The position numbers and the translations under genes are program-made. The notes under the pieces were generated by a model, which saw only the letters and a list, made by a program, of their open reading frames with translations, ran no database searches and had not been told where the DNA came from. Source: Bacteroidaceae bacterium (lineage in GTDB: Bacteria > Bacteroidota > Bacteroidia > Bacteroidales > Bacteroidaceae). From it: DNA of 64,000 nucleotides. Positions 9,863 to 58,682 of this stretch are shown here, in pieces; within the stretch, counting starts at the first letter, position 1, and the number at the start of each line of letters is the position of its first letter. The DNA lies in the NCBI GenBank assembly GCA_017631315.1, contig JAGBTN010000016.1, positions 1-64,000 on the forward strand, given 5' to 3'.

Positions 9863-9896
9863 CCAGAAAACATTCACACGTTTGTGACATTAAAAA

Positions 9897-9968
9897 AGTA
9901 TACGTGTTAAGTCCGCAAACTATACACGTTAAGTTGGGCAACTATACACGTTAAGTTTTCTACAATAC
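9897..9968. repeat. 22-bp modular intergenic repeat array, locus 1
   Basis: Three units start at 9897, 9919 and 9941. Each has a 10-nt insert (ATACGTGTTA once, ATACACGTTA twice) followed by a 12-nt element (AGTTGGGCAACT or variants). The array lies in the 276-bp gap between priA and ribE. Apart from this and the ribE promoter the gap shows nothing recognisable. Confidence 0.8.
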
Positions 9969-10079
9969 CAAAGTACTGCCGATAAGGCAACATTCAGTGA
10001 CGATATTTCCAGCAAAAATCATTTATGCCGAATACCAGATACAAGTTTTAGTATCTATAAAGGAAATATGACATGTGAA

Positions 10080-10110
10080 TTGTGAGTTTTGAATAAAATT
10101 CGTAACTTTG
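10080..10110 (+). promoter_or_regulatory. Promoter of the ribE-folA-thyA operon
   Basis: TTG (10080-10082), 20-bp spacer and TAACTTTG (10103-10110) lie 28 nt before the ribE ATG. Confidence 0.75.
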
Positions 10111-10138
10111 TAGGCGAAAATCAATCAGAATTTAGTTT

Positions 10139-10741: not shown

Positions 10742-10743
10742 CT

Positions 10744-12480
10744 ATGAAACGATATTTCCTAATTTTATTAACTGCCCTGTTGGCAGTTGGAATGCAGGCT
10801 GGGAAACATGTCGCAATTTGGCCAAAAGGCAAGATGCCCAACACCCAACCACAGCAAATTGCTGCAATGACAGCAGAAGTCAACACTAAAGGCTTCAATC
10901 CCGACAAAAACAGAATGCCCTACTTGGAATGGATGGAGAAGCCCGCCAATCCCAACGGAGGCTGTATGATACTCATCTCAGGAGGAGCATACAATGTAAC
11001 CTGCGACAACAACCTCATACAACTATGGACAGAGCGTTTCACCGAACTGGGTTTCCAATGCGTAAACTTTGTCTATCGCACCCCGCGTCCGGAAGGACTT
11101 CCTATATACAAAACAGCATGGGAAGACGGACAACGTGCAGTCCGCATGGTTCGTAACGAATCAAAGAAACGTGGATTCGACCCCGAAAAAATTGGCACCA
11201 TAAGCATGTCTGCGGGTTCACATCTGGCCTTGTTGCTCGCAACAAGTTCACAAACACCTGCATATGCTCGCATAGACGACCTCGACGACGTGCCTTGCCA
11301 CATCAATTTTGCAATCGTCAATGCACCCGCCTACGTCCTCAGCGACAGCAAAGGCGGCACGCCCAATGTCCGACTTGGTTATGGCCCCGATGTAAAACTC
11401 GACACAATTTTCCATTTCGACGAAAAGACATGTCCCATGAGTCTGCATCATGGAGGAGCCGACGAATATAGCCCCAATGCATCGACAATGATTTTCCGCC
11501 AACTTCGCAAAAGAAGAATCAACGCAGAACTTCACATTTATCCTGGCAAAGGACATGGGGCATTCGGACTTGAACGTGGCGTAGAGTTCCTGAAACAAAT
11601 GGGCCTGCTGGATCCCCTCCTCCCCGAAGTGGAATTAATGAAACGTTATGACCACAACAACGACCGGGCGAAGTATGTAAAGGAAAACATCTGGCCAGAA
11701 GGAAAAATGCCTTATGTACAGGAGAATCAAGGAACACCATACATCGAGTGGCATATCCCTGCAAATCTCAAAACAAAAGCCATTCAGATAATCTATTCAG
11801 GCGGAAGTTATATGGGCAATGGTCCCGATGGATTCGAGGTTGCACCTGCACGCAGACATCTCAATAGCCTTGGCATGGCAGTCGTAACAATGCGCTACCG
11901 CACACCTCGTCCCGCAGCCGAAACAGGTTTGAAGAAACACATCTCCGCATGGCAAGACTTACAACGCGCCATTCGTATTGTCAAGAGCAAAGCAGCAGAT
12001 TATGGCCTGGACCCAAACAACATTGGCATCATGGGAAGCAGTGCTGGCGGGCATCTAACCTTAATGGGAGTAACATCATCCGTGCAACAAGCCTATCTCC
12101 CCATAGACGAACTCGATAAAGTACCTTGCAACGTACAATGGGGCATCGGCATATATCCTGCATACTCACTTACCGATGGTGCAGAAGAAAGCAACAACAT
12201 GGGTATCGGTGGTGTTGAAGACAATGCCGTACTTGTCCCCGAGTTCAATTTCGACCTCAAGACAGCCCCCATGCTCTTTGTTCATGGCGACGAAGATGTA
12301 TGGGCAGCAATGAATTCTGTCAAGATTTGGGAAAAGATGCGTGCCATGGGCATACAAAGCGAATTGCATGTCCTTGCAAAACGCAATCACTGTTTCCAGA
12401 AGACTGCATCACCAGGAACAGGAAGTTACACTTTCCTCGAACGTATAAGTGATTTCCTTAAAGAAATGAAGAAATTATAA
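10744..12480 (+). CDS. Secreted protein with two tandem alpha/beta-hydrolase (esterase-like) domains
   Basis: This 578-residue protein has a signal peptide (about residues 1-19) followed by two homologous alpha/beta-hydrolase domains of the acetyl-esterase/BD-FAE type. Each has an oxyanion-hole region (ISGGAYNV; YSGGSYMG), an RTPRP segment, a nucleophile elbow, and Asp and His in plausible positions (GGADEYSP/GKGHGAFG; HGDEDVW/KRNHCF). Domain 2 has a canonical elbow GSSAG, while domain 1 has SMSAG, lacking the first Gly. It probably deacylates a carbohydrate or xenobiotic ester in the periplasm; the substrate is unknown. Its place inside a riboflavin/folate/thymidylate operon is not explained by its function. 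Confidence 0.8.
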   Translation: MKRYFLILLTALLAVGMQAGKHVAIWPKGKMPNTQPQQIAAMTAEVNTKGFNPDKNRMPYLEWMEKPANPNGGCMILISGGAYNVTCDNNLIQLWTERFTELGFQCVNFVYRTPRPEGLPIYKTAWEDGQRAVRMVRNESKKRGFDPEKIGTISMSAGSHLALLLATSSQTPAYARIDDLDDVPCHINFAIVNAPAYVLSDSKGGTPNVRLGYGPDVKLDTIFHFDEKTCPMSLHHGGADEYSPNASTMIFRQLRKRRINAELHIYPGKGHGAFGLERGVEFLKQMGLLDPLLPEVELMKRYDHNNDRAKYVKENIWPEGKMPYVQENQGTPYIEWHIPANLKTKAIQIIYSGGSYMGNGPDGFEVAPARRHLNSLGMAVVTMRYRTPRPAAETGLKKHISAWQDLQRAIRIVKSKAADYGLDPNNIGIMGSSAGGHLTLMGVTSSVQQAYLPIDELDKVPCNVQWGIGIYPAYSLTDGAEESNNMGIGGVEDNAVLVPEFNFDLKTAPMLFVHGDEDVWAAMNSVKIWEKMRAMGIQSELHVLAKRNHCFQKTASPGTGSYTFLERISDFLKEMKKL

Positions 12481-12481
12481 C

Positions 12482-12973
12482 ATGAGTAAAATCAATATCA
12501 TAGCAGCGATTGCAGAAAACAATGCCATTGGACATGAAGGAAAACTTCTCTATTGGTTGCCTTCAGACTTGCATCGCTTCAAAACACTCACAACCGGACA
12601 TACCATCATCATGGGCCGCAAGACTTTCGAAAGTTTACCTAAAGGAGCATTGCCCAACCGCAGGAATGTGGTACTTTCTCGCAACGAAAAGAACTTTCCC
12701 GGAGCAGAAACATTTGCTTCCCTTAAAGACGCTCTCGCCAGTTGTAGTGCCGAAGAAGATATATATATCATTGGTGGTGCAAGTGTCTATACCGAGGCAC
12801 TCCCCCTTGCCGACCGTCTCTGCCTGACGGAAGTACACGACACTCCCAAAGAAGCAGATGCTTTCTTCCCCAACTTCAATCGTGAAGAGTGGGAAGTTGA
12901 CTTTCTCGAAAAACACGAGAAGGATGAGAAGCATGCTCAAGACTATGACTTTATAGATTACATAAGGAAATGA
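12482..12973 (+). CDS. folA: Dihydrofolate reductase
   Basis: This 163-residue enzyme reduces dihydrofolate to tetrahydrofolate with NADPH. The N-terminal [23 protein letters not shown] contains the active-site Asp, followed by the NADPH-binding GRKTFESLP and the IIGGASVY glycine motif. It lies 1 bp after the hydrolase gene and overlaps thyA by 4 bp. It regenerates the folate that ThyA oxidises, so the pairing is functionally coherent. Confidence 0.96.
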
Positions 12974-13767
12974 AACAATACCTCGACCTATTACAGAAGA
13001 TACTTAACGAAGGTACCAAGAAGGAAGACCGCACTGGTACTGGCACAATCAGCACCTTTGGACATCAAATGCGTTTTGATTTGAGCGAAGGTTTTCCTCT
13101 GCTTACAACCAAGAAAGTACACCTGAAGAGCATTATTTATGAACTGCTTTGGTTCCTGCAAGGCAACACCAACGCAAAATGGCTACAAGAGCGAGGTGTG
13201 CGCATCTGGAACGAATGGGCAGACCCTGAAACAGGCGACCTCGGACACATTTATGGCTATCAGTGGCGTTCATGGCCAGACTATGACGGAGGCTTTATAG
13301 ACCAGATTCAACAAGCAGTCGATACTATTAAGAACGACCCTGACTGCAGGCGCATCATCGTTTCTGCATGGAATGTGGCAGACATCAAGAATATGAACCT
13401 GCCCCCATGTCATGCATTCTTTCAGTTCTATGTGGCAAACGGCAAACTCTCCTTACAACTATACCAAAGAAGTGCAGACTGCTTCCTTGGTGTGCCATTT
13501 AATATTGCATCCTATGCCCTACTTTGCATGATGATGGCACAAGTGTGCGGACTTGAGCCGGGTGACTTCATTCATACAACAGGCGACACGCATATCTACT
13601 TGAACCATCTCGACCAAGTGAACTTGCAACTCAGTCGCGAGCCTCGCAAACTGCCACGAATGCGCATCAATCCTGAGGTGAAAGACATCTTCAAGTTCCA
13701 ATACGAAGACTTCACCCTCGAAGACTACGACCCCTACCCTGCCATTAAGGGTGTTGTAAGTGTTTAA
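12970..13767 (+). CDS. thyA: Thymidylate synthase
   Basis: This 265-residue enzyme methylates dUMP to dTMP using methylene-tetrahydrofolate. Seen are the phosphate-binding RTGTGT near the N-terminus, LLTTKKVH, the catalytic Cys147 in [22 protein letters not shown], and the conserved [10 protein letters not shown] near the C-terminus. Length equals the E. coli enzyme closely. It is the last gene of the operon, and its TAA stop overlaps the TAA stop of the convergent nitroreductase gene. Confidence 0.97.
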
Positions 13768-14717
13768 CGCATTTTGAACACAACGGGAAGAGTCATTCGC
13801 ATACTGACATCCTTCCCATTTATTTTAGCCGGAATCCATTGGGGCATTTCGGTAACAATGCGTATTGCCTCTTTGGAAAGGGAAAGATGTGGCGATCTGA
13901 TTGCCTTAACATCAGTAATGGTGCCATCTTTTCTGATGACAAAAGATACAAGCACTCTACCTTCAACCTTTTTCTTTTCACAGTCTTTGGGGTAGATAAT
14001 ATGTTCGCTTAACCACTTGTAACACTCTGCATCGCCACCTTTGAACTCTGCAAGCACATCGACAACATTGTAAACAGTGTCGTCGCCGGCATTGTCTGTT
14101 GAGTTCGACGAACAAATGTACTTGACCTTTGATGCATCACGAGGCTTTGCCTCCGGTTTCTCGTCGGGATAGCCGACAGCAATGACATAGAGCAACTTAT
14201 AGTCTTTTGGTATGTCGAGACGTTCAAGGAAAAACTTCGCTTTATCGCAAGTAAGCAGGAAACGAACGGGACCTGTCTGGATGCATGTACCTAACCCGAG
14301 CGACTGAGCAGCCAACATCATATTTTCGCCCATCAAACCTGCATCAAGATCAAAGCCTCCGTCTTTCGGAGCACAAACGCAAATTAGGTTAGGAGCACCG
14401 CGAAACATATTCTTAAAATTTGGTTCGCGTGCCACTTGTTCTGCATTCTCCTTCTTATATACCTCGCTCACGTCGGCAATCAGTTTCTGGTCTTCAATAA
14501 TCCTGACTGCCCACATCTGCATGTTTCGTGCGCTTGGAGCATTGATGCCAGCGCAAGCAATGGCTTCCAGTTTGTCGTGTTCTACTGGTTTATCCAAATA
14601 CTTCCGAACAGAACGACGCGCCATAATGCAATTCATCACTTCGTTTTCATACACATTTTGTGCGGTAAGAGATAATACGCTAAATAGCACAATGAAACCT
14701 AAAAACAATCTTTTCAT
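13764..14717 (-). CDS. Secreted nitroreductase fused to a TonB C-terminal domain
   Basis: This 317-residue protein is read from Met at 14717, giving a clean signal peptide ([20 protein letters not shown]). A longer reading from 14741 would start upstream of the expected transcription start (-7 box at 14744-14751), so it is rejected. Residues about 25-190 are a nitroreductase-fold FMN flavoprotein ([37 protein letters not shown]). Residues about 233-317 form a TonB C-terminal domain ([43 protein letters not shown]). No transmembrane anchor or proline-rich TonB linker is present. The substrate is unknown; the export signal and fusion suggest a periplasmic redox role. Confidence 0.85.
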
Positions 14718-14743
14718 AGGATAAAACTTAAAACAATACACCG

Positions 14744-14751
14744 CAAAATTA
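14744..14751 (-). promoter_or_regulatory. -7 box of the nitroreductase-TonB gene
   Basis: TAATTTTG on the minus strand, matching TAnnTTTG, 26 nt upstream of the chosen ATG. It decides the start codon at 14717. Confidence 0.6.
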
Positions 14752-14962
14752 GCGATAAGTTTACAGATTACAAAACATTTGAATCGTTTTCTTTGATATT
14801 CAACGTAATATGAACAGGCAATTACAAACGGAAAGGTATCGGAAATCGAGAATCGGAAGTAGAAAAATCCACAAGAAACAAAGCAAATAACGACCGACTA
14901 TTAACATCTTGAATTTCAACAATATACTTTAAGATAGAAAACCTTACATGATTTCTTCGAAA

Positions 14963-15028
14963 ACTATACACGTTAAGTCGGGCAACTATACACGTTAAGT
15001 TTTTCAACTTAACGTGTTAAACTTACAA
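14963..15028. repeat. 22-bp modular repeat array, locus 2 (with inverted last unit)
   Basis: Units start at 14963, 14985 and 15007. The first two have insert ATACACGTTA. The third carries the insert in reverse orientation (TAACGTGTTA), so ACACGTTAAGT (14990-15000) and ACTTAACGTGT (15007-15017) can form an 11-bp hairpin. It lies between the nitroreductase 5' region and tRNA-Met; nothing else is seen in 14752-15086. Confidence 0.8.
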
Positions 15029-15086
15029 GCAAAACATTAGGCAAAGAAAAAGGACTTGTGAGAATATTCACAAATCCCTGTTTTTG

Positions 15087-15160
15087 TAGCGGGAGTGGGT
15101 CACGATCCCACGACCTCCGGATTATGAATCCGACGCTCTAACCAGCTGAGCTATCCCGCC
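15087..15160 (-). tRNA. tRNA-Met (CAT)
   Basis: Minus-strand cloverleaf: acceptor GGCGGGA pairs with TCCCGCT, D-stem GCTC/GAGC, anticodon stem CGGA/TCCG with loop TTCATAA (anticodon CAT), and T-arm GTGGG...CCCAC. Elongator Met is the default call. An Ile2 (lysidine-modified CAT) tRNA cannot be excluded by eye. Confidence 0.9.
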
Positions 15161-15190
15161 ATCCGCCACTCCTCTTCGGAATTGCGAACG

Positions 15191-15221
15191 CAAAGGTACA
15201 GCTTTTTTGCGGAATGACCAA
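15191..15221 (-). promoter_or_regulatory. Promoter of tRNA-Met
   Basis: Minus-strand -7 box TACCTTTG (15191-15198) with TTG (15219-15221) 20 bp upstream. Confidence 0.75.
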
Positions 15222-15302
15222 ACTTTTGCTGTACTTTTTTCAATTTTTCTTTCTTTTAATGTTTACTACATATTTATAACATGTATAATGGTATATAATG
15301 TG

Positions 15303-15310
15303 TAATTTTG
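15303..15310 (+). promoter_or_regulatory. -7 box of aroB
   Basis: TAATTTTG matches TAnnTTTG. An ATG at 15312 would lie at or before the transcription start, which favours the ATG at 15342. Confidence 0.55.
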
Positions 15311-15341
15311 TATGATAAAAAAGCACAGAAAAGACACCAGA

Positions 15342-16391
15342 ATGCAGAATGTATTTATAAGCCAACATTTACACAAGGACATTTCAAACATCATAGAGCA
15401 GTATACCTACGACCGTCTTTTTGTCCTTACAGACACCACTACTCTCAAATTATGTTGGCCAATCGTCAGCCAACTGCCTTGTATCGAATCTGCACAGATG
15501 ATAACAATAGGCGACACAGACGACAACAAAACACTCGACTCGCTTGTTCATGTCTGGAAGCAGCTGCAACAAGGCGGTGCAACACGCCACTCGCTACTCA
15601 TCAATCTTGGAGGCGGCATGATAACCGACCTCGGCGGATTTGCAGCAAGCACATTCAAGCGGGGATTGACCTACATAAACATCCCAACAACACTGCTCAG
15701 CCAAGTTGACGCCAGCGTTGGAGGCAAAACCGGCATCAACTTCGAAGGATTGAAAAACGAAATAGGCGTCTTCAGTCAAGCTGCAACGGTTATAATCTCA
15801 AGCGAGTTTCTACGTTCGCTTGACCTGAAGAATCTGCTCTCCGGTTATGCAGAAATGCTCAAACATGGGCTTATCAGCGATTACGAAAGCTGGGCAGAAT
15901 TACTTCGTTTCAATATTGAGGATTTTGACTACGGCCAGTTAAATACATTAGTAGCAAAAAGCATAGCAATAAAAGAAAAGATTGTAGAAGCCGACCCTAC
16001 AGAAAAAAACATACGCAAAGCATTAAACCTTGGACACACCCTAGGGCACGCCATTGAAAGCCTTGCTATGGAACAAAGAGAAACCATACTTCACGGCTAT
16101 GCCGTTGCATGGGGAATAATAGGCGAACTCTATTTGAGTTTCATGAAATGCAATTTCCCGAAAGAACACTTGCAACAGACTGTTCAATTCATCAGACAAT
16201 ACTATGGCAATGCACCTGTTGACTGTAAACAATATGAACGCCTCTACCAATTAATGATGCACGACAAGAAAAACTCGGGAAACAACATAAACTTTACACT
16301 CTTAGGCAATATAGGAGACATTCGCATCAATCAGCAAGCGACAAAGAACGAGATATTCGAGATGCTCGACTTCCTAACCTTCAATATCTAA
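15342..16391 (+). CDS. aroB: 3-dehydroquinate synthase
   Basis: This protein of about 349 residues is the second enzyme of the shikimate pathway: it converts DAHP to 3-dehydroquinate using NAD and a divalent metal. Motifs are the NAD-binding GGGMITDLGGF, FKRGLTYINIPTTLLSQVDASVGGKTG, the metal ligand Glu in SGYAEMLKHG, and the HTLGHAIE and ILHGYAVAWG histidines. An in-frame ATG at 15312 would add ten residues, but it sits almost on the -7 box, so 15342 is preferred. It is convergent with the leucine operon, sharing a terminator. Confidence 0.95.
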   Translation: MQNVFISQHLHKDISNIIEQYTYDRLFVLTDTTTLKLCWPIVSQLPCIESAQMITIGDTDDNKTLDSLVHVWKQLQQGGATRHSLLINLGGGMITDLGGFAASTFKRGLTYINIPTTLLSQVDASVGGKTGINFEGLKNEIGVFSQAATVIISSEFLRSLDLKNLLSGYAEMLKHGLISDYESWAELLRFNIEDFDYGQLNTLVAKSIAIKEKIVEADPTEKNIRKALNLGHTLGHAIESLAMEQRETILHGYAVAWGIIGELYLSFMKCNFPKEHLQQTVQFIRQYYGNAPVDCKQYERLYQLMMHDKKNSGNNINFTLLGNIGDIRINQQATKNEIFEMLDFLTFNI

Positions 16392-16417
16392 AGATAACGC
16401 GCAAATAACATAAACAT

Positions 16418-16458
16418 AAGGACGAACCACCTTGAATATCCAGGAAGTTCGTCCTTTT
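16418..16458. terminator. Bidirectional terminator between aroB and the leucine operon
   Basis: AAGGACGAAC (16418-16427) pairs with GTTCGTCCTT (16447-16456), followed by T residues on the plus side. It lies between convergent genes. Confidence 0.75.
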
Positions 16459-16479
16459 ATATATCATTAAAGATGTTTT

Positions 16480-18015
16480 CTACTGTACCTTCTCGTCTTC
16501 GAGCAAATTCAACATCTTGATGGTCGATTTGATAGCAGATTCCGTTTGGTCTGCATCGAGACCTCGTGTACGGAAGACACGGTCGTTCCATGTCCAAGTA
16601 ATAACAGTCTGAACAAGAGCATCAGTACGTCCGCCGGGAGGAATGCTTACAGTATAATTAGCCAACCACGGGAAGGAACGTCCTAAACGGTTTTTATAAA
16701 TATGACGAATTGCACGAACGAAAGCATCAAACTGGCCATCGCCCTTTGCACTTTCCTCATAAGTTTCGCCATTCACCTCCAAGCGCACACTTGCCAAAGG
16801 CTTAAGGCCGTATGCTGTGGTGACAACATACGAAAGCAAACGCACATGCTCTTCGGGTGCACCATGCTTGAGAACATCACTTACAATGTATGGCAAATCT
16901 TCTTGAGTAACAAGTTCCTTCTTGTCGCCAAGCTCAATGATACGTTCAGTAACACGCTTTGTCTGTTCCGGAGAAAGTTCTAGTCCAAGTTCCTCGAGAT
17001 TGCGAAGGATATTTGCCTTTCCGGAATTCTTGCCGAGCGCATACTCGCGTTTACGCCCGAAACGTTCAGGCAAAAGAGGATTCTGATAAAGACCTGCTTT
17101 ATTGTCGCCATCGGCATGAACACCAGCAACCTGGGTAAAGACGCTTTCGCCGGTAATCGGCTTATTAGGAGGAATAGCAATACCGCTATAACTCTCCACA
17201 AGTCGTGACACCTCACCCAAACGGCTTTCATCCACATGCGTATGGACTTGAAGATGGTCATTAAGAACAGCCTGTACACTTGCAAGAGGTGCATTACCAG
17301 CCCTTTCACCTAAGCCATTAACACTCGTATGTATACCCTTGCAACCAGCCATAACAGCAGCAAGCACATTACTGATTGCTAAATCATAATCGTTATGAGC
17401 GTGGAAGTCAAATCGTTTGTCAGAAAAGCGCTCAACCATCTGACGCATGTAATGTGACAACACAATTGGATTGAGCACACCAAGAGTATCCGGTAGCATA
17501 TAGCGATCGATAGGCATCTCGGAGAGTCCTTCTACAAGGGCAAACACATAATCCGGACTGTCTTTCATGCCATTGCTCCAGTCCTCAAGATAGACATTTA
17601 CACTGACACCCTTCTGCTGAGCATAGTCTATGGTATAGCGTATATCAGCGATATGTTCCTCAAGTGTCTTGTGTAACTGACCTTCACAATGTTTACGACT
17701 GCCTTTGCAAAGAAGGTTCATGTGACAGCATCCGCTCTCAACAATCCAATCCACACTGGCTTTCCCATCAACAAAACCGAGGACCTCTACCCTGTCGAGC
17801 CGACCTGTTTGGCTTGCCCAGCGTGTTATGTTTTTTACCGCCTCCTTCTCTCCTTCCGAAACGCGTGCACTTGCCACTTCAATCCGATCTACATTAAGAT
17901 CTTGTAACAAAGCACGAGCAATCATCAGTTTTTCATGAGGCATGAAACTTACACCGCTCGTCTGTTCTCCATCGCGCAGTGTAGTGTCCATTATCTCTAT
18001 GTGCCTGCTTTCCAT
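16480..18015 (-). CDS. Citramalate synthase-like / second 2-isopropylmalate-synthase-family enzyme
   Basis: This 511-residue protein has a DRE-TIM barrel ([16 protein letters not shown] near the N-terminus; metal site in HAHNDYDLAISN; NGLGERAGNAPL) and a C-terminal LeuA-type allosteric domain (about residues 385-505). It condenses acetyl-CoA with a 2-oxoacid. Because a bona fide leuA is the first gene of the operon, this divergent paralogue could be an (R)-citramalate synthase feeding isoleucine synthesis, or a second IPMS. The sequence alone does not settle this. It is the last gene of leuA-leuC-leuD-this, 12 bp after leuD. Confidence 0.75.
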   Translation of the reverse strand: MESRHIEIMDTTLRDGEQTSGVSFMPHEKLMIARALLQDLNVDRIEVASARVSEGEKEAVKNITRWASQTGRLDRVEVLGFVDGKASVDWIVESGCCHMNLLCKGSRKHCEGQLHKTLEEHIADIRYTIDYAQQKGVSVNVYLEDWSNGMKDSPDYVFALVEGLSEMPIDRYMLPDTLGVLNPIVLSHYMRQMVERFSDKRFDFHAHNDYDLAISNVLAAVMAGCKGIHTSVNGLGERAGNAPLASVQAVLNDHLQVHTHVDESRLGEVSRLVESYSGIAIPPNKPITGESVFTQVAGVHADGDNKAGLYQNPLLPERFGRKREYALGKNSGKANILRNLEELGLELSPEQTKRVTERIIELGDKKELVTQEDLPYIVSDVLKHGAPEEHVRLLSYVVTTAYGLKPLASVRLEVNGETYEESAKGDGQFDAFVRAIRHIYKNRLGRSFPWLANYTVSIPPGGRTDALVQTVITWTWNDRVFRTRGLDADQTESAIKSTIKMLNLLEDEKVQ

Positions 18016-18027
18016 AAGAAGACAAAA

Positions 18028-18651
18028 TTAAAGGCTATTTGCAGTTTCCCACTTCTCTATCTTGTCTGTATTAGAGAGGAGGAAGTCGATATCATCGTAT
18101 GCATTCATCAAACAATACTTCTTGTAGCTGTTAATTGCAAACTGTTCACTGTTGCCAGTCGTGAGGTTTGTAATTGTTTGATTGGGTACATCTACCTTAA
18201 TTTCTGCTTTTGGATTTTCCTTCACTGTTTGGAAAAGTTCTTGTTGAAACTCTCTGCTAACGACGACAGGAAGCACAAAACAATTAAGCAAGTTATTACG
18301 ATGTATGTCGGCAAAACTACTGCTAACAACAACCCTTGCCCCATAACCGGCTATTGCCCATGCTGCATGTTCGCGACTTGAACCCGAGCCCCAGTTCTGT
18401 CCGCCAATAATAATTTCGTGGACACCCTTGCTTGGCGCTTCACTATAAGCAGGTTGATTCATCACGAAATCTTCGACGGGTTTACCGTTTGCATCATAAC
18501 GAAGATCGTGCATAAAGGCATCGCCAAAGAACTTTGGGTCTCGCGTTGTGCTTGCCAGATAGCGTGCAGGAATAATTAAGTCTGTGTTACAGTTGTCAAT
18601 CTCAATAGGAAGACAAGTAGATTGTATGATGTCAAATTTCTGTTTAGCCAT
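18028..18651 (-). CDS. leuD: 3-isopropylmalate dehydratase, small subunit
   Basis: This 207-residue swivel-domain subunit partners LeuC to isomerise 2- to 3-isopropylmalate (leucine synthesis), and possibly citramalate. Seen are NTDLIIPARYL near the N-terminus and the active-site loop IGGQNWGSGSSREHAAWAI, then FADIHRNNLLN. Length is typical. It begins 4 bp after leuC. Confidence 0.95.
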   Translation of the reverse strand: MAKQKFDIIQSTCLPIEIDNCNTDLIIPARYLASTTRDPKFFGDAFMHDLRYDANGKPVEDFVMNQPAYSEAPSKGVHEIIIGGQNWGSGSSREHAAWAIAGYGARVVVSSSFADIHRNNLLNCFVLPVVVSREFQQELFQTVKENPKAEIKVDVPNQTITNLTTGNSEQFAINSYKKYCLMNAYDDIDFLLSNTDKIEKWETANSL

Positions 18652-18655
18652 AATA

Positions 18656-20047
18656 TCAAATGTTTCGTGGGTCTGTAATTACTCCAGTAATGGCAGAAGC
18701 TGCCACAACAAGCGGTGATGCTAGAACTGTACGTGCTCCTGGGCCTTGACGACCTACGAAGTTTCTGTTAGAAGTACTGATACTTAATTTCCCTGCAGGA
18801 ACTTTATCTGGATTCATAGCCAAGCAACTTGAACAACTGGGCAAACGTAATTCAAATCCTGCTTCTTCGAGAATCTTGTCGATACCTTCGTCGATGATTT
18901 GCTGGCGAACGAGCCAACTGCCAGGCACAAGCCAAGCAACGACATTGGCTGCCTTCTTTTTACCTTTCACAACAGAAGCAAAAGCACGGAAGTCTTCAAT
19001 TCGTCCATTTGTACAAGCACCCAAGAAACAATAGTCCACAGGAGTACCTTCCAACTTCTGTCCGGGTTCGAACTGCATATATTCAAGCTGGGAGAGGAAC
19101 TGAGCGCGGTCTGCTTCTGGCACACTATCAATTGTTGGAATACATTCGTCGATAGCAATACCTGCACCCGGATTGGTTCCGTAAGTGATGCGAGGTTTAA
19201 TGTCTTCTGCTTTGTATGTAACTTCTTTGTCAAATACTGCATCGTCGTCGCTTTTTAGTTTGCTCCATTCTGCTACAGCCTTATCCCAGGCTTCGCCTTT
19301 GGGGGCATATTCACGACCTTTGAGGTAGGCAAAAGTTGTTTCATCGGGAGCGATGATGCCTGCACGGCTACCCATTTCTATCGAGAGATTAGAAAGGGTA
19401 AGACGTCCTTCCATAGACATATTTCGTACGGTGCTACCTGCGTATTCCACTGCATAACCTGTGGCTCCACTGGTTGTCATTTGAGCCATGATATACAAGG
19501 CAACGTCCTTTGCCGTTACGCCTGGTTGAAGTTCGCCTTCAATGTTGATGCGCATTGTTTTAGGCTTCTGTTGCAAGATGCATTGTGAAGCGAGCACCTG
19601 AGCCACTTCACTTGTGCCGATACCCATTGCGATGGCACCAACTGCACCATGTGTACTGGTGTGCGAGTCGCCGCAAACAATAGTCATTCCAGGCAAGGAA
19701 AGTGCTTTTTCCGGCCCAACTACATGAATGATGCCATTATCCTTTGTGCCCATAGCAAAATGGCGAATGCCAAACTCCTTGCAATTAGCAGCAAGGGTCT
19801 CTACTTGCTTTCGTCCCACGGGATCGTCAATATGGTCTTGCTGGTCGCTTGGAGTATTATGGTCGGGCATTGCGAAAACATGGTCGGGACGGAATACCTT
19901 TATTCCTTTGTCGCGGAGTGTGTCGAATGCCTGAGGACTGGTTACCTCGTGAGCATAGAGACGATCAATGTAGAGTTGTGTTGGTCCGTCTTCCACGTTT
20001 TGTACAACATGTGCGTCCCATATCTTGTCGAAGAGAGTTGACTTCAT
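18656..20047 (-). CDS. leuC: 3-isopropylmalate dehydratase, large subunit
   Basis: This 463-residue aconitase-family subunit binds a [4Fe-4S] cluster. Cluster and active-site motifs are [36 protein letters not shown] and [15 protein letters not shown]. The C-terminal [20 protein letters not shown] is complete. It acts with LeuD, whose gene follows after 4 bp, and lies 12 bp after leuA. Confidence 0.96.
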
Positions 20048-20059
20048 GGATAATATGTT

Positions 20060-21556
20060 TTACTTGAATTTATTTATACAATCAATATAAGCCTCAACAG
20101 AAGCTGTTACAATGTCGGTGTTGGCACCGAAACCATAATAGACCTTGCCATCATATTCAACCTGCATGTGAACCTTACCCATATCGTCTGAGCCTTTGGA
20201 GATGGCTTGAATGGTGAATTCCTTGAGTGTCATCTCTCTCTTGATGATGGTCTTAAGAGCCTTGATAGCTGCATCGACAGGGCCATTGCCGGATGCCGCA
20301 CTTTCGAACTTCTCGTTGGCAATGATGAGGCCGATGCTTGCAACGCTACGAACACCTTTGCCTGTTGTCACTTGCAGGTAATCAAGTTTGATGTTGTGTG
20401 TTGCGGAACGGTCTGCACCTGCGAGGACAAGAACGTCGTCGTCTGTCACTTCTTTCTTCTTGTCGGCAAGTTTGAGGAACTCTTCATATATCTTGTCCAG
20501 ACGTTCGCCATCTACGTCTATGCCGTTTACATTAAGACGATGTCTCAAGGCTGCACGACCGCTTCGGGCTGTCAAGACGATTGCATTGTCGTCAATGCCG
20601 ACATCCTTGGGGTTCATAATTTCGTAGGTAGAAGCATTCTTCAGCACACCGTCCTGATGAATACCACTGCTATGAGCAAAGGCATTTCTGCCAACGACGG
20701 CCTTGTTGGGCTGAACGGGCATATTCATCAGCGAGCTTATCATACGGCTTGTTGGATAAATCTTTGTCGTATTGATGTTCGTATCGATGCCAAGATCGGG
20801 ATGAGTTTTGAATATCATGGCTACCTCTTCGAGAGAAGTGTTGCCTGCACGTTCGCCAATACCGTTGATTGTTACTTCAACCTGACGAGCGCCATTCAGT
20901 ACACCGGCAACCGTATTGGCTGTTGCCATGCCGAGGTCGTTGTGGCAATGAGTAGAAAGAATACTGCGTCCTGCAGCAAAGGCATCAACATGTTCGTAGA
21001 GATATTTAATCTTTTCGCCGTATTCGTATGGGGTACGGAAGCCAGTCGTGTCGGGTATATTGCAGACTGTTGCACCTGCCTTTGTTACTGCATCGATGAC
21101 GCGAGCCAGATACTCGTTGTCTGTTCTGCCTGCATCTTCGGCATAAAACTCCACATCCTCTACATATCTCTTTGCATACTTCACAGCGGCAACGGCACGT
21201 TCGATGATTTCTTCGGGCGTTGAGTTAAACTTATAGCGAATATGGCTCTCGCTTGTGCCGATACCTGTATGGATTCGTTTGTGTTTTGCATACTTCAATG
21301 CCTCTGCTGCACAGTCGATATCCTTTTCCACCGCACGGGTCAAAGCGCAGATGGTGGGCCATGTTACTGCCTTACTGATTTCTATGACGCTATTGAAGTC
21401 GCCCGGACTGCTGACAGGGAAACCTGCTTCAATAACATCCACGCCAAGCGCTTCGAGTTGTCGAGCCACTTGAATCTTTTCTACTGTATTGAGCTGACAC
21501 CCGGGCACTTGTTCGCCATCACGCAGTGTCGTATCGAAAATAAACAACTTATCCAT
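20060..21556 (-). CDS. leuA: 2-isopropylmalate synthase
   Basis: This 498-residue enzyme condenses acetyl-CoA with 2-oxoisovalerate, the committed step of leucine synthesis. The N-terminus has [19 protein letters not shown], then [12 protein letters not shown], metal-binding [14 protein letters not shown], and [17 protein letters not shown]. The C-terminal regulatory domain (leucine feedback) covers about residues 370-495. It is the first gene of the operon. The leader between the -7 box and ATG is only about 25 nt, leaving no room for a leucine attenuator. Confidence 0.95.
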
Positions 21557-21585
21557 AGTAAGATTTCAACTTTTAATTTCGCGTG

Positions 21586-21593
21586 CAAAGATA
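21586..21593 (-). promoter_or_regulatory. -7 box of the leucine operon
   Basis: TATCTTTG on the minus strand, 29 nt upstream of the leuA ATG. No clear TTG is seen at -33. Confidence 0.6.
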
Positions 21594-21779
21594 TAAAAAA
21601 AAGTTGGATACTTAAAGACGAGATAGAGGAAAAGTAAAGGAAATACATAATTTCTACACTAAAACATCGAAACCAACAATAACAATTTGTTATGTAAATC
21701 AGTGTTTTGCTTTCTTTTTGACGTTTTTGCACACTTCTACATTCGGTTGATTTCATGCCGGAAAACGTCAAAATAACGA

Positions 21780-21889
21780 ACTTAACGTGTATGGGTTGCA
21801 AACGACACACAAGAAGATTGAAAACTAAACACGTTAAGTCGGGCAACTACACTGGCGTCGTTTGAGAACTTAACACGTATCTGATATTG
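21780..21889. repeat. 22-bp modular repeat array, locus 3 (degenerate)
   Basis: An inverted unit core ACTTAACGTGTAT (21780-21792) is followed by three units in exact 22-bp register at 21824, 21846 and 21868, with inserts AAACACGTTA, ACACTGGCGT and TAACACGTAT. The rest of the 640-bp gap between leuA and the GH2 gene (21594-22235) holds no supported gene. Confidence 0.7.
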
Positions 21890-22106
21890 AATCCACACCT
21901 CAAAAAGTGTGCAAAAACGAGTAAATTCAAGTATTTATGTTGACATCACAAGGCATTTTCTATTGATGCAAAATAACATTCCACACATAACACACTGTAT
22001 ATCAACCCGTATGCGTTTTACGCACAATTCATTAGAAAAACACAGAAAAACGCACACAAATAGTGTCAAAGTGTATTTGAACGATTTTCGAGGAATCAGA
22101 ATGTAA

Positions 22107-26678
<4,572 letters not shown>

Positions 26679-26739
26679 AAACCTTCTGCATCGACTACAA
26701 TCCCTGTAAGCAAAAGGCAAGTCGGAATGTAAGAAAGGT

Positions 26740-26849
26740 ACCTCTCTAGAGAAGTTTGTAATTTACTCCAGAGAAGTTGGCAAACTATACACGTTAAGTC
26801 GGGCAACTATACACGTTAAGTTGGGCAAGTTCTTTAGAGTAGTTGAAAA
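26740..26849. repeat. 22-bp modular repeat array, locus 4 (five units, two insert types)
   Basis: Five units in strict 22-bp register begin at 26740, 26762, 26784, 26806 and 26828. The two central units carry insert ATACACGTTA. The outer ones carry TCTCTAGAGA (perfect palindrome), ACTCCAGAGA and TCTTTAGAGT. The 12-nt element between them is AGTCGGGCAACT or a close variant. It lies between the GH2 gene and the FISUMP leader; nothing else is recognised in 26850-27064. Confidence 0.8.
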
Positions 26850-27064
26850 GCCATATAGAAATGCAGACTTTTCTCCTGCTCTACCAACACACACCCATAA
26901 ACGGCTACTACCCTATCCGTAAGTGTTAAGGGATGGTTCATATTATTCTAAACTTCGTCCTTGGAAGCAAGAAAAATGAATATATAGTTATCCTCTTATA
27001 AAGTTTAAGGAGAAAAGAAAACAAGAAAATCGAGTTTTCATTTTCTTTGTATATATATAATTCG

Positions 27065-27072
27065 TATCTTTG
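27065..27072 (+). promoter_or_regulatory. -7 box of the FISUMP leader RNA
   Basis: TATCTTTG, about 290 nt upstream of the FISUMP ATG. It sets the 5' end of the structured leader at about 27079. Confidence 0.6.
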
Positions 27073-27078
27073 CAGACG

Positions 27079-27359
27079 AAAAGGGCAATAAACAACCTCG
27101 GCGGAGGAAACCCTTTCATATCTTATCGAAAATAAACGAAGCGTTATGCTCGTCTTGTCAAACGGATAACCTGGTAAGTTATAAAATACAGACAAGAAGT
27201 GTCATGATAGTTTCCATGCTAAGCGTGGACTGCTATTGATGCATCTATCTGTATAGGTTTTACCAGGACCTCCGTTTGAAGATGTGGATACAGTGCCACG
27301 CTTCTGCGTATAACTAAATGTCCTTGGGGTGCTGATGGACACTGAAATACACAAACAAA
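27079..27359 (+). ncRNA. Structured 5' leader RNA, copy 1 (upstream of FISUMP lipoprotein)
   Basis: Pairings visible by eye: hairpin CCTC/GAGG (27096-27099/27104-27107); closing stem GAAGCGT/ACGCTTC (27138-27144/27298-27304); CAAACGGA/TCCGTTTG (27159-27166/27271-27278); CCTGGTAA/TTACCAGG (27170-27177/27260-27267); ATACAGA/TCTGTAT (27186-27192/27248-27254); apical hairpin TCCATGC/GCGTGGA (27213-27219/27223-27229); 3' hairpin TGTCC/GGACA (27319-27323/27337-27341), ending 18 nt before the ATG. The same architecture recurs at 58697-59015 with compensatory changes. It is probably a cis-regulatory element; I cannot assign it to a known family. Confidence 0.8.
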
Positions 27360-28973
27360 ATGAGAAAAGTATTCAGTTTAGGGGCATTGCTCATGCTGGC
27401 AATGTGCGCCGGCTTTGTCTGCAGTTGTAATGACGATGTAGAGGAAACCCCACCAGCAACAGTCACACCTCCCAGTGGCGATGCAACAGAGGACAAGGAC
27501 ACCCATGAGTATGTTGACCTTGGCTTGCCATCAGGAACTTTGTGGGCAACATGCAATGTCGGTGCCAACAGTCCTGAAGAATACGGTGATTACTTTGCTT
27601 GGGCCGAGACAGAACCTAAAACGACATACGATTGGAGCACCTACAAGTACTACAATGGTACCACAATGACGAAGTACTGTGCAGAAAGTAAATATGGAAC
27701 AGTTGATAACAAGACCGAACTTGAGGCAATGGACGATGCTGCCACAGTAAACTGGGGAGCAGATTGGCAGATACCAAGTAGAGAACAATTCGAAGAACTC
27801 ATCAACAGCAGTTGCACAACCACAAAATGGACAACCATGAATGGCGAAAACGGCAGAAAGATAACAAGTAAGAGCAATGGTAACAGTATATTCTTGCCGG
27901 CTGCTGGTAGATGTGAAGATACGAGCCTCTACGATGCAGGTAGCTACGGCTACTATCATTCACGTACTGTCGGTGTCGGTTCAGTTCCAAGCTCCCATAG
28001 TATTGGCCTTCGATTATATTCCAGCAGGATCCACTCGAACGGCCAAAGCCGTTACTCCGGTCACAGCGTTCGTCCTGTCCGTGTAAAGGAGAGCATTGCT
28101 GTTTCAAATATAGAAATAAGTAAGACAGAACTTTCTGTCAAGGTCGGTGCAACCTCACAACTTTCGGCAATCATACTGCCTGAAAATGCAACCAATAAAG
28201 CAGTTGTTTGGGCAAGCAGCAATGCAGATGTTGCGACGGTTGATGAGACAGGTAAGGTCTTTGCTGTTGCTTTAGGTATTTGCACGATTACTTGTTCTGC
28301 AACAGACGGTAGTAGCGTAAAGGCAGAGTGTAAGGTAACAGTAATAAAGAATGACAATTCCGGAACATTGGATGGTCATGAATATGTCGACCTCGACTTG
28401 CCATCAGGAACTTTGTGGGCAACATGCAATGTAGGTGCTTCAAAGCCTGAAGAATATGGCGATTACTTTGCATGGGGCGAAGCAGAACCAAAGAGTGATT
28501 ACAGTTGGAGCACCTATAAGTATTGTCAAGGAATAGAACCTACAATGACGAAGTATTGCACAATCAGTGATTGTGGTATAGTCGATAACAAGACTGAACT
28601 TGAAGCAATGGACGATGCTGCCACAGTAAACTGGGGCAGCGATTGGCAGATGCCAAGTCCTCAACAGTTAGAAGAACTCATCAACAATAGTTATACAACC
28701 ACAGCGTGGACAACCATGAATGGCAAATATGGCAGGATGATAACCAGCAAGAGCAATGGCAACAGTATTTTCTTGCCAGCTGCCGGTTCTCGCGACGAAG
28801 TGACCCTCAACAGTGCAGGTAGCATCGGCTGCTATTGGTCGTCACTCAATACGGGTTACAGTATCTATGCTTTCAACCTGAGTTTCGATTCCGGCAATAT
28901 CTACACGTACTACTTTAGCATCTATTCCCGCTTTTTCGGCCTGAGCGTTCGCCCCATTCGTGTGAAGAAGTAA
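27360..28973 (+). CDS. Surface lipoprotein with two FISUMP domains flanking a Big_2 Ig-like domain
   Basis: This 537-residue lipoprotein has a type II signal peptide with Cys23 followed by NDD. Domain 1 (about 48-240) and domain 2 (about 338-537) are homologous FISUMP domains (Fibrobacter succinogenes major paralogous family, C-type-lectin-like fold), each opening HEYVDL(G/D)LPSGTLWATCNVGA and closing SVRP(V/I)RV. A Big_2 Ig-like domain (about 243-325, SVKVGATSQLSAIILPENATN) lies between. The two FISUMP copies are nearly identical for ~130 residues and then diverge strongly over a block of equal length before the shared SVRP ending. It is probably a surface-exposed ligand-binding or adhesin protein. 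It is monocistronic behind a structured leader. Confidence 0.85.
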   Translation: MRKVFSLGALLMLAMCAGFVCSCNDDVEETPPATVTPPSGDATEDKDTHEYVDLGLPSGTLWATCNVGANSPEEYGDYFAWAETEPKTTYDWSTYKYYNGTTMTKYCAESKYGTVDNKTELEAMDDAATVNWGADWQIPSREQFEELINSSCTTTKWTTMNGENGRKITSKSNGNSIFLPAAGRCEDTSLYDAGSYGYYHSRTVGVGSVPSSHSIGLRLYSSRIHSNGQSRYSGHSVRPVRVKESIAVSNIEISKTELSVKVGATSQLSAIILPENATNKAVVWASSNADVATVDETGKVFAVALGICTITCSATDGSSVKAECKVTVIKNDNSGTLDGHEYVDLDLPSGTLWATCNVGASKPEEYGDYFAWGEAEPKSDYSWSTYKYCQGIEPTMTKYCTISDCGIVDNKTELEAMDDAATVNWGSDWQMPSPQQLEELINNSYTTTAWTTMNGKYGRMITSKSNGNSIFLPAAGSRDEVTLNSAGSIGCYWSSLNTGYSIYAFNLSFDSGNIYTYYFSIYSRFFGLSVRPIRVKK

Positions 28974-38558: not shown

Positions 38559-38692
38559 ATCTTATAGGGTTGTCTGCTTGTATTCTACAAATGTCATGCC
38601 AAACACAAAAGAACATAAAGTCATGACGCCATAAACATCCGAATGCAGAAGATATTAGCAGACATCCTGCCCTCCGAAATATGATGGCTCAA

Positions 38693-38770
38693 AAGTTCAC
38701 GTGTAAAGTCGACAAACTACACACGTGAAGATTGCCATTTACACACGTGAAGTTGGGCGACTTGACAGGC
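38693..38770. repeat. 22-bp modular repeat array, locus 5 (CACGTG subtype)
   Basis: Units begin near 38694, 38716 and 38738, with inserts TCACGTGTAA (inverted), ACACACGTGA and ACACACGTGA, and end in a degenerate unit near 38760. It is upstream of clpC and about 240 bp upstream of the BspA-like gene. Beyond it and the hairpin at 38772-38837, the gap 38559-38939 is AT-rich with no supported gene. Confidence 0.75.
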
Positions 38771-38771
38771 A

Positions 38772-38837
38772 AGAGCCCCTCCCAACCTTAACCCTAACGC
38801 TTAACTCCTCCCCCTAGGGGGAGGTCGGGAGGGGGCT
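38772..38837. repeat. Large G/C-tract inverted repeat with 18-bp perfect palindrome
   Basis: CCTCCCCCTAGGGGGAGG (38807-38824) is a perfect palindrome, and AGCCCCTCCC (38774-38783) can pair with GGGAGGGGGCT (38827-38837) around it. It is extremely GC-rich in an AT-rich gap. It could be a strong terminator-like hairpin or a small dispersed palindromic element. Confidence 0.7.
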
Positions 38838-38998: not shown

Positions 38999-41059
38999 AT
39001 GACATACCCTTACTCGCATTATCCCAAAACAATCGAGATTGACGGCATCTACTACAACTTAGTTACATGGGCAAAGCAAGCCGAAGTAACTAGAAATCCT
39101 AACGAATACCGTGGCGCAGTTAACATCCCGGAGACTGTTTCCTACAATGGCGTAACATATTCTGTCACAAGCATAGGAGACGGCGCATTCAGATCATCCG
39201 GTCTTACCTCTGTCACTATTGGCAACTCCGTAAAAAGCATAGGAAACTATGCATTCTATAAATGCTACAATCTTACCTCTGTCACCATAGGCAACTCTGT
39301 AACAAGCATAGGAAGCGGTGCATTCAGTGACTGCTCATATTTGGAAAAGGTTATTGTTCCTAACATTGCAGCATGGTGCGGGATTGCATTTGAAGATGAG
39401 AATGCAAATCCTTTATATCGTGCCCACCATTTGTATAGCGATGAAACAACAGAAATAACAAACCTTATTATCCCCAACTCCGTAACAAGCATAGGATACT
39501 TAGCATTCCGTGGCTGCTCCGGTCTTACCTCTGTCAACATACCCAACTCCGTAACAAGCATAGGAAAGTCTGCATTCGATGGCTGCTCAGGTCTTACCTC
39601 TGTCACCATACCCAACTCCGTAAAAAGCATAGGATACAGGGCATTCTATAACTGTTCAGGTCTGAAAAAGGTCATTGTGCCGGACATTGCAGCATGGTGC
39701 AGCATTGATTTTGCTGATTATTATGATGCTGATATGTGGGTAAATCCTTTTATTGATGTTGATGATTATTCTGCAAATCCTTTATATTATGCAAGACACC
39801 TTTACAGCGATGAAACAACAGAAATAACAAACCTTATTATCCCCAACTCCGTAACAAGCATAGGAGGCTATGCATTCTGGAACTGCCGTGCTCTTACCTC
39901 TGTAACCATACCCAACTCCGTAACAAGCATTGGATGGCGTGCATTCCAAGATTGCTCGGGTCTTACCTCTGTCACCATACCCAACTCCGTAAAAAGGATA
40001 GAATGGCATGCATTCCGAGATTGCTCGGGTCTTACCTCTGTCACCATCCCAAACTCCGTAAAAAGCATTGGAGGGATTGCATTCCAAGATTGCTCGGGTC
40101 TTACCTCTGTCACCATCCCCAACTCCGTAACAAGGATAGAATGGCATGCATTCGATGGCTGCTCAGGTCTTACCTCTGTCACCATACCCAACTCCGTAAC
40201 AAGCATACAAAACGACGCATTCAGGTACTGCTTGGGTCTTACCTCTGTCACCATCCCAAACTCCGTAACAAGCATAGGAGACAGGGCATTCGCTTACTGC
40301 ACTGGTCTTACCTCTGTCAATATCGGCAATGGTGTGAAGAGTATAGGGAGCAGTGCCTTTGCCGACTGTGCAGAATTGACAGATGTCTATTGTTATGCAG
40401 AGAGCGTGCCTTCCACAAATAGCAATGCTTTTGACGGTTCGTACACAGAATATGCTACGCTCCATGTGCCGGCTGCATCTATCGAAAAATACAAGGCCAA
40501 AGCACCCTGGAGCAACTTCGGTACGATAGTTGCTACAGATGGCACAATACCCGAACCGCCCACACCAGAGAAGTGCGCTACGCCAACCATCAGTTACAGC
40601 AAAGGCGAACTGACTTTCTCCTGCAATACAGAAGGAGCAGAATTCATTTCGGAGATTAAAGACGCCGACATCAAAAAGCATTACACAGCCTCTGTTTCAC
40701 TAACCGCAACCTACAACATCAGCGTCTATGCCACAAAGGCAAACTATGAAAACAGCGACACCATTCAGGCTACGCTCTGCTGGATAGAGCAACAGCCACA
40801 GACGGAAGGCATAACAGACGAAGATGCCGTGGCAGAAATGCAGGCTGTTCCTGTTCTGATACAGACACAAGGCAACACCATCAACGTGCAAGGTGCAGAA
40901 GCAGGCACAGAGATTATTCTCTACGGCACGAATGGCGTACAACTCGATTCTGTCATTGCAACCACAGGCGTTGCATCGCTGAACGCTTCTGGTCTGTCGG
41001 GCTCTGTGGCAATCGTCAAGATTGGCAACAAGACCGTCAAGGTGTTGATAAAGCAGTAA
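38999..41059 (+). CDS. BspA-like leucine-rich-repeat protein without signal peptide
   Basis: This 686-residue protein has about 14 LRR_5 (Treponema pallidum-type) units of 23 residues with consensus LTSVTIPNSVTSIGxxAFxxCSG. They are interrupted by two IVP(N/D)IAAWC modules. A C-terminal region (about 510-686) includes chitobiase-like and sorting-tail-like segments ending VKVLIKQ. The N-terminus MTYPYSHYPKTIEIDGIYYNL aligns with the mature start of the second BspA-like protein (59016-62576), so the expected signal peptide is absent. The promoter lies only 28 nt upstream and no signal-coding sequence is found in any frame before it. Either export is lost or the gene is a 5'-truncated duplicate. 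BspA-like proteins are adhesins in related bacteria. Confidence 0.85.
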   Translation: MTYPYSHYPKTIEIDGIYYNLVTWAKQAEVTRNPNEYRGAVNIPETVSYNGVTYSVTSIGDGAFRSSGLTSVTIGNSVKSIGNYAFYKCYNLTSVTIGNSVTSIGSGAFSDCSYLEKVIVPNIAAWCGIAFEDENANPLYRAHHLYSDETTEITNLIIPNSVTSIGYLAFRGCSGLTSVNIPNSVTSIGKSAFDGCSGLTSVTIPNSVKSIGYRAFYNCSGLKKVIVPDIAAWCSIDFADYYDADMWVNPFIDVDDYSANPLYYARHLYSDETTEITNLIIPNSVTSIGGYAFWNCRALTSVTIPNSVTSIGWRAFQDCSGLTSVTIPNSVKRIEWHAFRDCSGLTSVTIPNSVKSIGGIAFQDCSGLTSVTIPNSVTRIEWHAFDGCSGLTSVTIPNSVTSIQNDAFRYCLGLTSVTIPNSVTSIGDRAFAYCTGLTSVNIGNGVKSIGSSAFADCAELTDVYCYAESVPSTNSNAFDGSYTEYATLHVPAASIEKYKAKAPWSNFGTIVATDGTIPEPPTPEKCATPTISYSKGELTFSCNTEGAEFISEIKDADIKKHYTASVSLTATYNISVYATKANYENSDTIQATLCWIEQQPQTEGITDEDAVAEMQAVPVLIQTQGNTINVQGAEAGTEIILYGTNGVQLDSVIATTGVASLNASGLSGSVAIVKIGNKTVKVLIKQ

Positions 41060-50772: not shown

Positions 50773-50809
50773 GTGCCTATCCGTATCGGCACACTGGGAT
50801 AACGGAAAA

Positions 50810-50919
50810 ACTACACACGTGAAGTCGGGCAACTACACACGTGAAGTTTGCCATTTACACACGTGAAGTCGGGCAACTTTACACGTGAAGTTTTTCGTCG
50901 TAACACGAGTACTTTGCCG
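50810..50919. repeat. 22-bp modular repeat array, locus 6 (CACGTG subtype, five units)
   Basis: Units start at 50810, 50832, 50854, 50876 and (degenerate) 50898. Inserts are ACACACGTGA three times, TTACACGTGA and TAACACGAGT, separated by AGTCGGGCAACT-type 12-mers. It lies between pheS and the next gene; nothing else is recognised in 50920-51119. Confidence 0.8.
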
Positions 50920-58474: not shown

Positions 58475-58527
58475 AAAAGCATAAACTCGACATACCTCAA
58501 TTTCAGCCGATTACACAACGCCAGTAT

Positions 58528-58605
58528 ACTTGGCAAACTTAACGTGTAAAGTCGGCCGACTTAACGTGTATAGTTGCCCGACTTCTCTGCAGAAGTTTTC
58601 AAAGT
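58528..58605. repeat. 22-bp modular repeat array, locus 7 (minus orientation)
   Basis: Read on the minus strand, four units in 22-bp register have inserts TCTGCAGAGA, ATACACGTTA, TTACACGTTA and ATACTGGCGT, linked by AGTCGGGCAACT, AGTCGGCCGACT and AGTTTGCCAAGT. All three insert types known from the other loci occur here. The remainder of 58475-58682 shows nothing else. Confidence 0.75.
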
Positions 58606-58682
58606 TCTCTTGTGTGTGTTCGAGAGTACCCCAAAAAAGTTATTTTTTTATTGCTTTTTGCTCATTATTCATAACTAATTTG

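Follow-up and report, generated by a model that had tools for sequence, protein, structure and literature searches.

The array at positions 26737..26853 of the window, by which we mean the whole 64-kb stretch of Bacteroidaceae DNA analysed here (G000:C16:1-64000, part of the 2.68-Mb draft genome G000), raises the question of what kind of element is built from its evenly stepped 22-bp units. The initial annotation had described it as one of seven intergenic arrays in which a fixed 12-mer, hereafter the linker, alternates in exact 22-bp register with an exchangeable 10-nt insert, hereafter the core, and had taken the arrays for either a modular binding array or a dispersed non-coding element.

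Anatomy of the arrays and their 22-bp units

A lag-22 scan of the window at our lowest match threshold (22/40) recovered all seven arrays at the positions claimed for them, and added one borderline stretch at 12332-12412. None of the arrays is assigned a strand. Array 1 (9895..9960) consists of ATACACGTTA cores with an exact linker at 9932, array 2 (14959..15026) has an exact linker at 14976 and closes on the right with an inverted unit, and the degenerate array 3 (21777..21869) contains an exact linker at 21837 and a ACACTGGCGT core. The array under study, array 4 (26737..26853), combines mixed core classes with an exact linker at 26797 and a one-mismatch linker at 26819. Array 5 (38682..38779) and array 6 (50807..50896) share ACACACGTGA cores, the former with no linker closer than the one-mismatch copy at 38751 and the latter with exact linkers at 50823 and 50867. 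Array 7 (58506..58615), with mixed cores and an exact linker on the minus strand at 58572, precedes a BspA-like leucine-rich-repeat (LRR) reading frame by about 400 bp. Such reading frames, which carry 69-bp DNA repeats, were noted at 39000-41059 and 59016-62576 of the window and at four further loci (L034, L036, L029 and L121), and a composite array subfamily stands upstream of several BspA-like LRR paralogues.

The linker AGTYGGGCAACT is present in the window in seven exact copies and two copies with one mismatch, compared with a mean of 0.47 copies (up to one mismatch allowed) in dinucleotide shuffles of the same DNA. All seven arrays were placed outside genes by a codon-usage gene caller, in agreement with the initial annotation, and two purely mechanical ORFs overlap the linkers at 21837 and 50823. 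Searched against Rfam at gathering thresholds, the window yielded tRNAs only. The annotation had proposed a genome-wide search for the 12-mer as a check, and had named its absence elsewhere, or its frequent occurrence in coding regions with no register, as outcomes that would speak against the element. Neither was observed: the search yielded 54 exact copies in G000, against zero for the reversed control, and three of the 54 look coding by reading of the DNA. Loci were retrieved around the 47 hits lying elsewhere in the genome and read; without the three coding-looking copies, 51 anchors remained, which belong to 46 arrays.

Walking outward from these anchors, with steps of 21–23 bp accepted, gave 229 linkers (loose end units counted) and 167 inner cores. 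Within that range the register is tight rather than exact, as 167 of the 183 unit steps measure 22 bp, 11 measure 21 bp and five measure 23 bp; furthermore, on either side of the 51 anchors a loose linker score is highest at offset 22. The idea of a fixed 12-mer did not survive. The exact form occurs in six of the seven window arrays, and just once in five of these, with neighbouring linkers varying around it, and the 229 linkers fall into 141 strand-collapsed types, the commonest being AGTCGGGCAACT (36 times) and AGTTGCCCAACT or its complement (15 times). Likewise, the three insert classes originally recognised expand to 66 core types among the 167 inner cores, with TCTCTGCAGA (31), ATACACGTTA (22) and ACACACGTGA (9) as the most frequent. 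A CRISPR array, with identical direct repeats and unique spacers, does not fit the recurrence of the two commonest cores between loci and the variation of the linkers. The motif GTAG, which like CGTC is a tag at the foot of REP palindromes, occurs in some units, for example GTGTAGTTG.

The inserts had also been described as mostly palindromic or nearly so. Core arm pairing reaches 0.541, above the maximum of 0.515 obtained from 1000 shuffles of half-cores, which sustains this description in part; however, the excess is smaller when the 66 unique cores are considered (0.491; the shuffles averaged 0.405 and reached 0.497 at most), and the centre is usually asymmetric, the two central bases being GT/AC or TG/CA in 134 of 167 cores. 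An anchored alignment had 74.6% of its cells paired, against 68.8% after shuffling. In the same alignment, pairs changed on both sides were not raised (6, shuffled mean 7.0), and sliding by -2 columns produced an equal covariation score (0.164 vs 0.163). In the linkers, a pairing excess was looked for and none was found. Many G000 cores hold the six-base palindromes CTGCAG, ACGCGT or CACGTG, and GTTAAC appears in the other array family.

Scale, gene context and distribution

The wider extent of the arrays in G000 was assessed in a 662-kb sample comprising two contigs and the window, with genes called by a small codon-usage script. A profile derived from the anchored arrays detected 48 arrays, 47 of them intergenic. 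Of 263 intergenic regions, 81 (about 31%) showed lag 22 in a sequence-agnostic scan (match threshold 24/40), any other lag from 14 to 33 being detected in at most seven, and five Markov shuffles produced 0–1 lag-22 arrays. According to the gene caller, 82 of the 83 lag-22 arrays are intergenic, so that the designation of a dispersed non-coding element is well supported by both approaches. Since about one-third of the sampled intergenic regions show lag 22, the seven arrays of the window represent the visible corner of a wider 22-bp lattice. This includes another array family built on GGTTAACC-type cores, modules such as AAGGTTAACCATTATTGCCCG, to which a rough regex sort assigned 26 of the 83 arrays while leaving 22 unsorted, and further arrays on AGGCACGCC- or ACATACATGT-type cores. 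A 22-bp family of ATCATGATGCAGCAATTGATTT-type units was also seen in the genome G026 (L050, G026:C14:9767), and a similar family (TTGAATGGTCATGATGCAACAA) in G000 (G000:C17:90271).

The 82 intergenic arrays lie in 46 tandem, 20 convergent and 16 divergent gene contexts (match threshold 24/40), and in 36 of the 46 tandem contexts of G000 the array is nearer to the upstream stop (p=1.6e-4). This placement would suit RNA-level elements, either bidirectional terminators or 3'-UTR hairpins, as would the folding of both strands, which is better than in mononucleotide-shuffled sequence (z averaging about -3.2 and -2.9). A tendency towards GAAAAC/GTTTTC at array ends was counted as well: among 298 ends, GTTTT points outward in 103 and inward in 42, and in the 81 tandem contexts TTTTT stands at the downstream end (27) slightly more often than at the upstream end (19). 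However, RNAalifold returned 0 consensus pairs across the 46 arrays, and GTTTT marks upstream ends (30/81) and downstream ends (28/81) equally often, so that these ends ignore the direction of transcription. The 16 arrays between divergent genes also argue against such a role. Moreover, in the part of the window from 9001 to 28000, where 20 terminator-like stems were found and 18.0 were expected, no such stem overlaps an array, and three stand 10–24 bp beyond one. With no consensus structure and with GTTTT indifferent to transcription, RNA-level readings are weakened, and we regard them as unlikely. An idea based on wobble, with T.G pairs and a GCCC linker strand, was discarded, as the orientation is mixed, the sense strand showing GGGC in 10 cases and GCCC in 7.

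Beyond G000, a search of 399 genomes of the family for pairs of exact linkers with N{0,30} between them gave 41 matches in 12 genomes and five genera; the gap was exactly 10 nt in all 41, and the reversed control gave none. R1, a sequence model of the arrays, was positive in at least 24 of the 121 genomes of the genus, at least 14 of which had at least 12 matches, and these counts are lower bounds, obtained under stricter filters with about 42 candidates scored per genome. When six other genomes from five genera were scanned without reference to sequence (match threshold 23/36), lag 22 was detected in 13 of 165 intergenic regions, pooled, compared with six for the double lag of 44, three for lag 42 and at most two for any other lag between 10 and 49. 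The units differ between genera and their letters are mostly unrelated; many are palindromic by eye, some lag-22 hits are not clearly so, and two hits in G254 share a GGGCAACT motif. At a match threshold of 26/40, array density amounts to 11.0 per 100 kb in G000 and to 1.7–3.8 per 100 kb in the six other genomes.

At the same threshold of 26/40, no lag-22 array was found in 200 kb of E. coli K-12, nor in 29 loci from the order, all but one of which belong to other families and one to this family, or in 29 loci from the phylum. These loci, placed by a pattern, are about 3 kb each, and by a crude measure their noncoding DNA adds up to about 22 kb. IMG/VR viral contigs gave no match to two array patterns, and plasmid and phage collections gave no match to one array; in the material searched, the arrays were found on chromosomes only. 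The genome G193 carries a long 22-bp tandem array of 8.8 copies (G193:C10:119987-120086; L061 / L082), situated between two ABC permease-like genes that read as FtsX/MacB-type.

Turnover between relatives and comparison with known repeats

The evolution of the arrays was followed in G023, a sister species of the same genus, the two genomes not being independent. Of the arrays on two G000 contigs, alignments run through all 26 that lie within syntenic blocks, a further 15 being untestable, and no whole-array loss was observed at the 26 sites. Divergence between the two species, measured for 24 of the 46 arrays, amounts to 9.3% in linkers, 7.3% in cores and 7.4% in flanks. In a separate comparison, identity was 88.3% in arrays and 85.7% in flanking intergenic DNA. 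The arrays thus diverge at about the flanking rate, and their letters show no strong purifying selection. At paired core positions, a pair is gained or lost through a single change in 26 cases; two double changes keep the pair and three lose it. Two arrays are longer or shorter than their orthologue by a single whole 22-bp unit, and two of the 12 indels within arrays are 22 bp long, the rest measuring 1, 2, 3, 11 or 20 bp.

At a greater distance, 20 loci of G008 and G051 contained 19 arrays, seven of which could be mapped onto the available G000 sequence (match threshold 24/40). A G000 array lies between the same flanking matches, with changed cores, at six of these seven sites, and one site is without a G000 array; up to 4 kb was allowed between flanking matches, so that "the same place" is exact only where the arrays were aligned. 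Four such pairs were aligned base by base, and three of them line up clearly, the fourth (L224) not. They include a core swap in register, from TCTGCAGTGA in G000 to TAACACGTTA in G008, and the swap of a whole lattice, from AGGTTAACCA in G000 to TAACGTGTTA in G051. Whole-unit differences and cores swapped in register between orthologous arrays bear out the modular architecture with exchangeable inserts proposed by the initial annotation. Across these species, place and period are retained and the letters are not.

Because the letters show little constraint, the strongest rival to a functional interpretation is that of neutral minisatellites, in which replication slippage or unequal crossing-over would lengthen and shorten arrays of palindromic units that serve no function, the 22-bp period descending from one ancestor. 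Divergence at about the flanking rate, unit-sized indels together with concerted unit changes, and the strong differences in density between genomes all agree with this account. It would not, however, lead one to expect a single period across mostly unrelated sequences of several genera, or the retention of the same places over distances at which the units have been replaced, both of which are unexpected under free drift; the lack of lag-22 arrays in E. coli and in the loci from other families also counts against it. Taken together, we consider neutral origin possible, though somewhat doubtful.

Among described systems, REP/BIME elements, which bind gyrase, are the most alike in habit. These bacterial interspersed mosaic elements (PMC3733652) share with the arrays short palindromic units, mosaic combinations, an intergenic position near gene ends and a high copy number. 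The arrays differ in keeping a strict 22-bp tandem register with a period common to different sequences. Strict membership would imply spread by a Y1 (RAYT) transposase. The REP-like habit speaks for such spread, as do three loci with Y1 genes in two genomes of the genus, G067 and G077 (L199, L200 and L204), each lying no more than about 0.8 kb from an array of 21- or 22-bp period. Nevertheless, of the 14 genomes that reach 12 or more R1 matches, 10, including G000, gave no match to the Y1 domain PF01797, and neither did G254 (20 linker copies), G193 or G301; the assemblies are incomplete (72% for G023). The other four of the 14 gave strong (G026, G034) or weak (G069, G391) PF01797 matches. 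Together with the absence of whole-array loss at the 26 sites, the mostly missing Y1 partner largely refutes transposase-driven spread for this clade, which we hold to be very unlikely, and with it strict membership in REP/BIME.

Neisserial intergenic mosaic elements (NIME/dRS3) are short inverted-repeat units in intergenic arrays, separated by 50–150-bp repeats. They resemble the present arrays as intergenic arrays of inverted-repeat units, whereas here the lattice is contiguous, at 22 bp. The BrickBuilt MITE of Porphyromonas gingivalis resembles the arrays as a tandem short-unit minisatellite with about 20 dispersed intergenic copies, and is reported from P. gingivalis and P. gulae as one sequence family with a 23-bp unit, a leader and a tail, and IS5-like terminal inverted repeats (PMC4596501). 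The arrays differ from it in stepping by 22 bp in 167 of 183 cases and by 23 bp in only five. Furthermore, the empty site looked for in a MITE was found at none of the 26 syntenic arrays, all of which are kept in the sister species. REP/BIME and BrickBuilt are the closest kinds, and neither matches. A study of candidate RNAs reports 250 palindromic candidates, 230 of them predicted terminators and some exclusive to Bacteroidetes (PMC8040213). No account of the element was found within open-licence full texts, in keeping with the earlier statement that no described family fits.

A further possibility is that the arrays serve gene cassettes as sites of recombination or attachment, in the manner of integrons or of rAID clusters, which are described as conserved intergenic motifs among small immunity genes of Bacteroidales (PMC12247911). 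Some arrays of the genus g13 occupy comparable immunity-gene-like surroundings, and in other genera some arrays stand among small genes that resemble immunity genes by reading. Some breaks in synteny fall at arrays, and G023 carries a 1.09-kb insertion in a terminal array module, flanked at both ends by a short direct repeat (L135 vs L021). By contrast, the G000 arrays are dispersed, and the breaks, striking as some are, show no enrichment over random intergenic positions (10 of 37 intergenic edges at arrays, 8.0 expected, p=0.26), so that this reading was rejected as highly improbable. At L021, the G000 counterpart, a different insertion of 1.08 kb lies between a tRNA-like stretch and the array.

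A candidate protein and the putative lattice

A DNA-binding protein of the HU-HIG family (HU domain, PF18291) was considered as a reader of the arrays because several HU-HIG genes have an array directly upstream. Several AGTYGGGCAACT arrays of the genus g13 adjoin an HU-HIG gene, the domain having been tested for two of the proteins, and one genome each of g3 and g9 has an HU-HIG protein next to an array, recognised from translations only. HU-HIG loci were compared with AraC loci from five genomes (match threshold 26/40), using 25 of 70 HU-HIG matches, of which one was dropped as it repeats its neighbour's array, and 30 of 211 AraC matches. Lag-22 arrays were present at 10 of 24 HU-HIG and 2 of 30 AraC loci (p=0.003), one orthologous array being counted twice; the excess is weaker per noncoding base (54.5 per 100 kb vs 25-38). 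Across 30 HU-HIG loci, including five from G000, 16 arrays were counted at the same threshold, of which 11 stand upstream of the domain start at a distance of up to 300 bp and three downstream of it within the same distance. Three of the five G000 loci carry arrays, and their letter classes differ. Since the excess shrinks per noncoding base, HU-HIG stays a lead rather than the sole explanation, and is named here as a candidate array-binding protein in that sense.

In four genomes (G262, G207, G384 and G135), GAGTYGGGCAACTC arrays were seen beside HU-HIG-like frames (L079, L095, L080, L097 and L083). By reading of translations, small genes resembling immunity genes surround the GAGTYGGGCAACTC arrays, and in G384 and G135 the HU-HIG-like frame is seemingly cut short at the array.

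With the rival explanations in view, we give about an even chance to the interpretation that these are REP/BIME-like palindromic 22-bp arrays acting in the Bacteroidaceae as a putative DNA-level protein-binding lattice. The fixed spacing of two helical turns is compatible with a binding array, the binding itself being putative. The common two-turn step and the dyad in each unit lead us to infer the involvement of double-helical DNA and of dimers placed side by side. The conserved property would be geometry, namely one dyad-bearing unit per two helical turns, on which protein dimers could sit side by side on one face of the DNA and assemble into a cooperative lattice, possibly with an architectural role such as that proposed for REP/BIME arrays. 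Turnover unit by unit, through slippage or gene conversion, may homogenise each array, and the letters could drift while the spacing holds, owing either to changing protein specificity or to tolerance of sequence. Counted against the lattice are the divergence at the flanking rate, the small number of 22-bp indels and the weak conservation of pairs. In addition, the many module families within a genome would need several proteins or one that reads shape.

A more specific version of this proposal is a geometric code, in place of a sequence code, which intergenic lattices would carry throughout the family: the 22-bp step, dyad symmetry and chromosomal address alone would be conserved, the letters would change in concert, and putative dimeric chromatin proteins, assembling along one face of the DNA, would act as readers; each HU-HIG paralogue may then own a letter class, its own promoter array and its dispersed sites. 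We put this forward tentatively, as a scheme that is rather unlikely to hold in full.

The arrays are present in about 31% of the sampled intergenic regions of G000, which belongs to a family of common animal-gut bacteria. Should their spacing and place be conserved and their sequence not, annotation based on motifs or on conservation misses such arrays, and they would offer a testable entry to the organisation of the nucleoid or of gene borders in the Bacteroidaceae. Even if the DNA is selfish or neutral, the occurrence of one 22-bp step across different sequences needs explaining.
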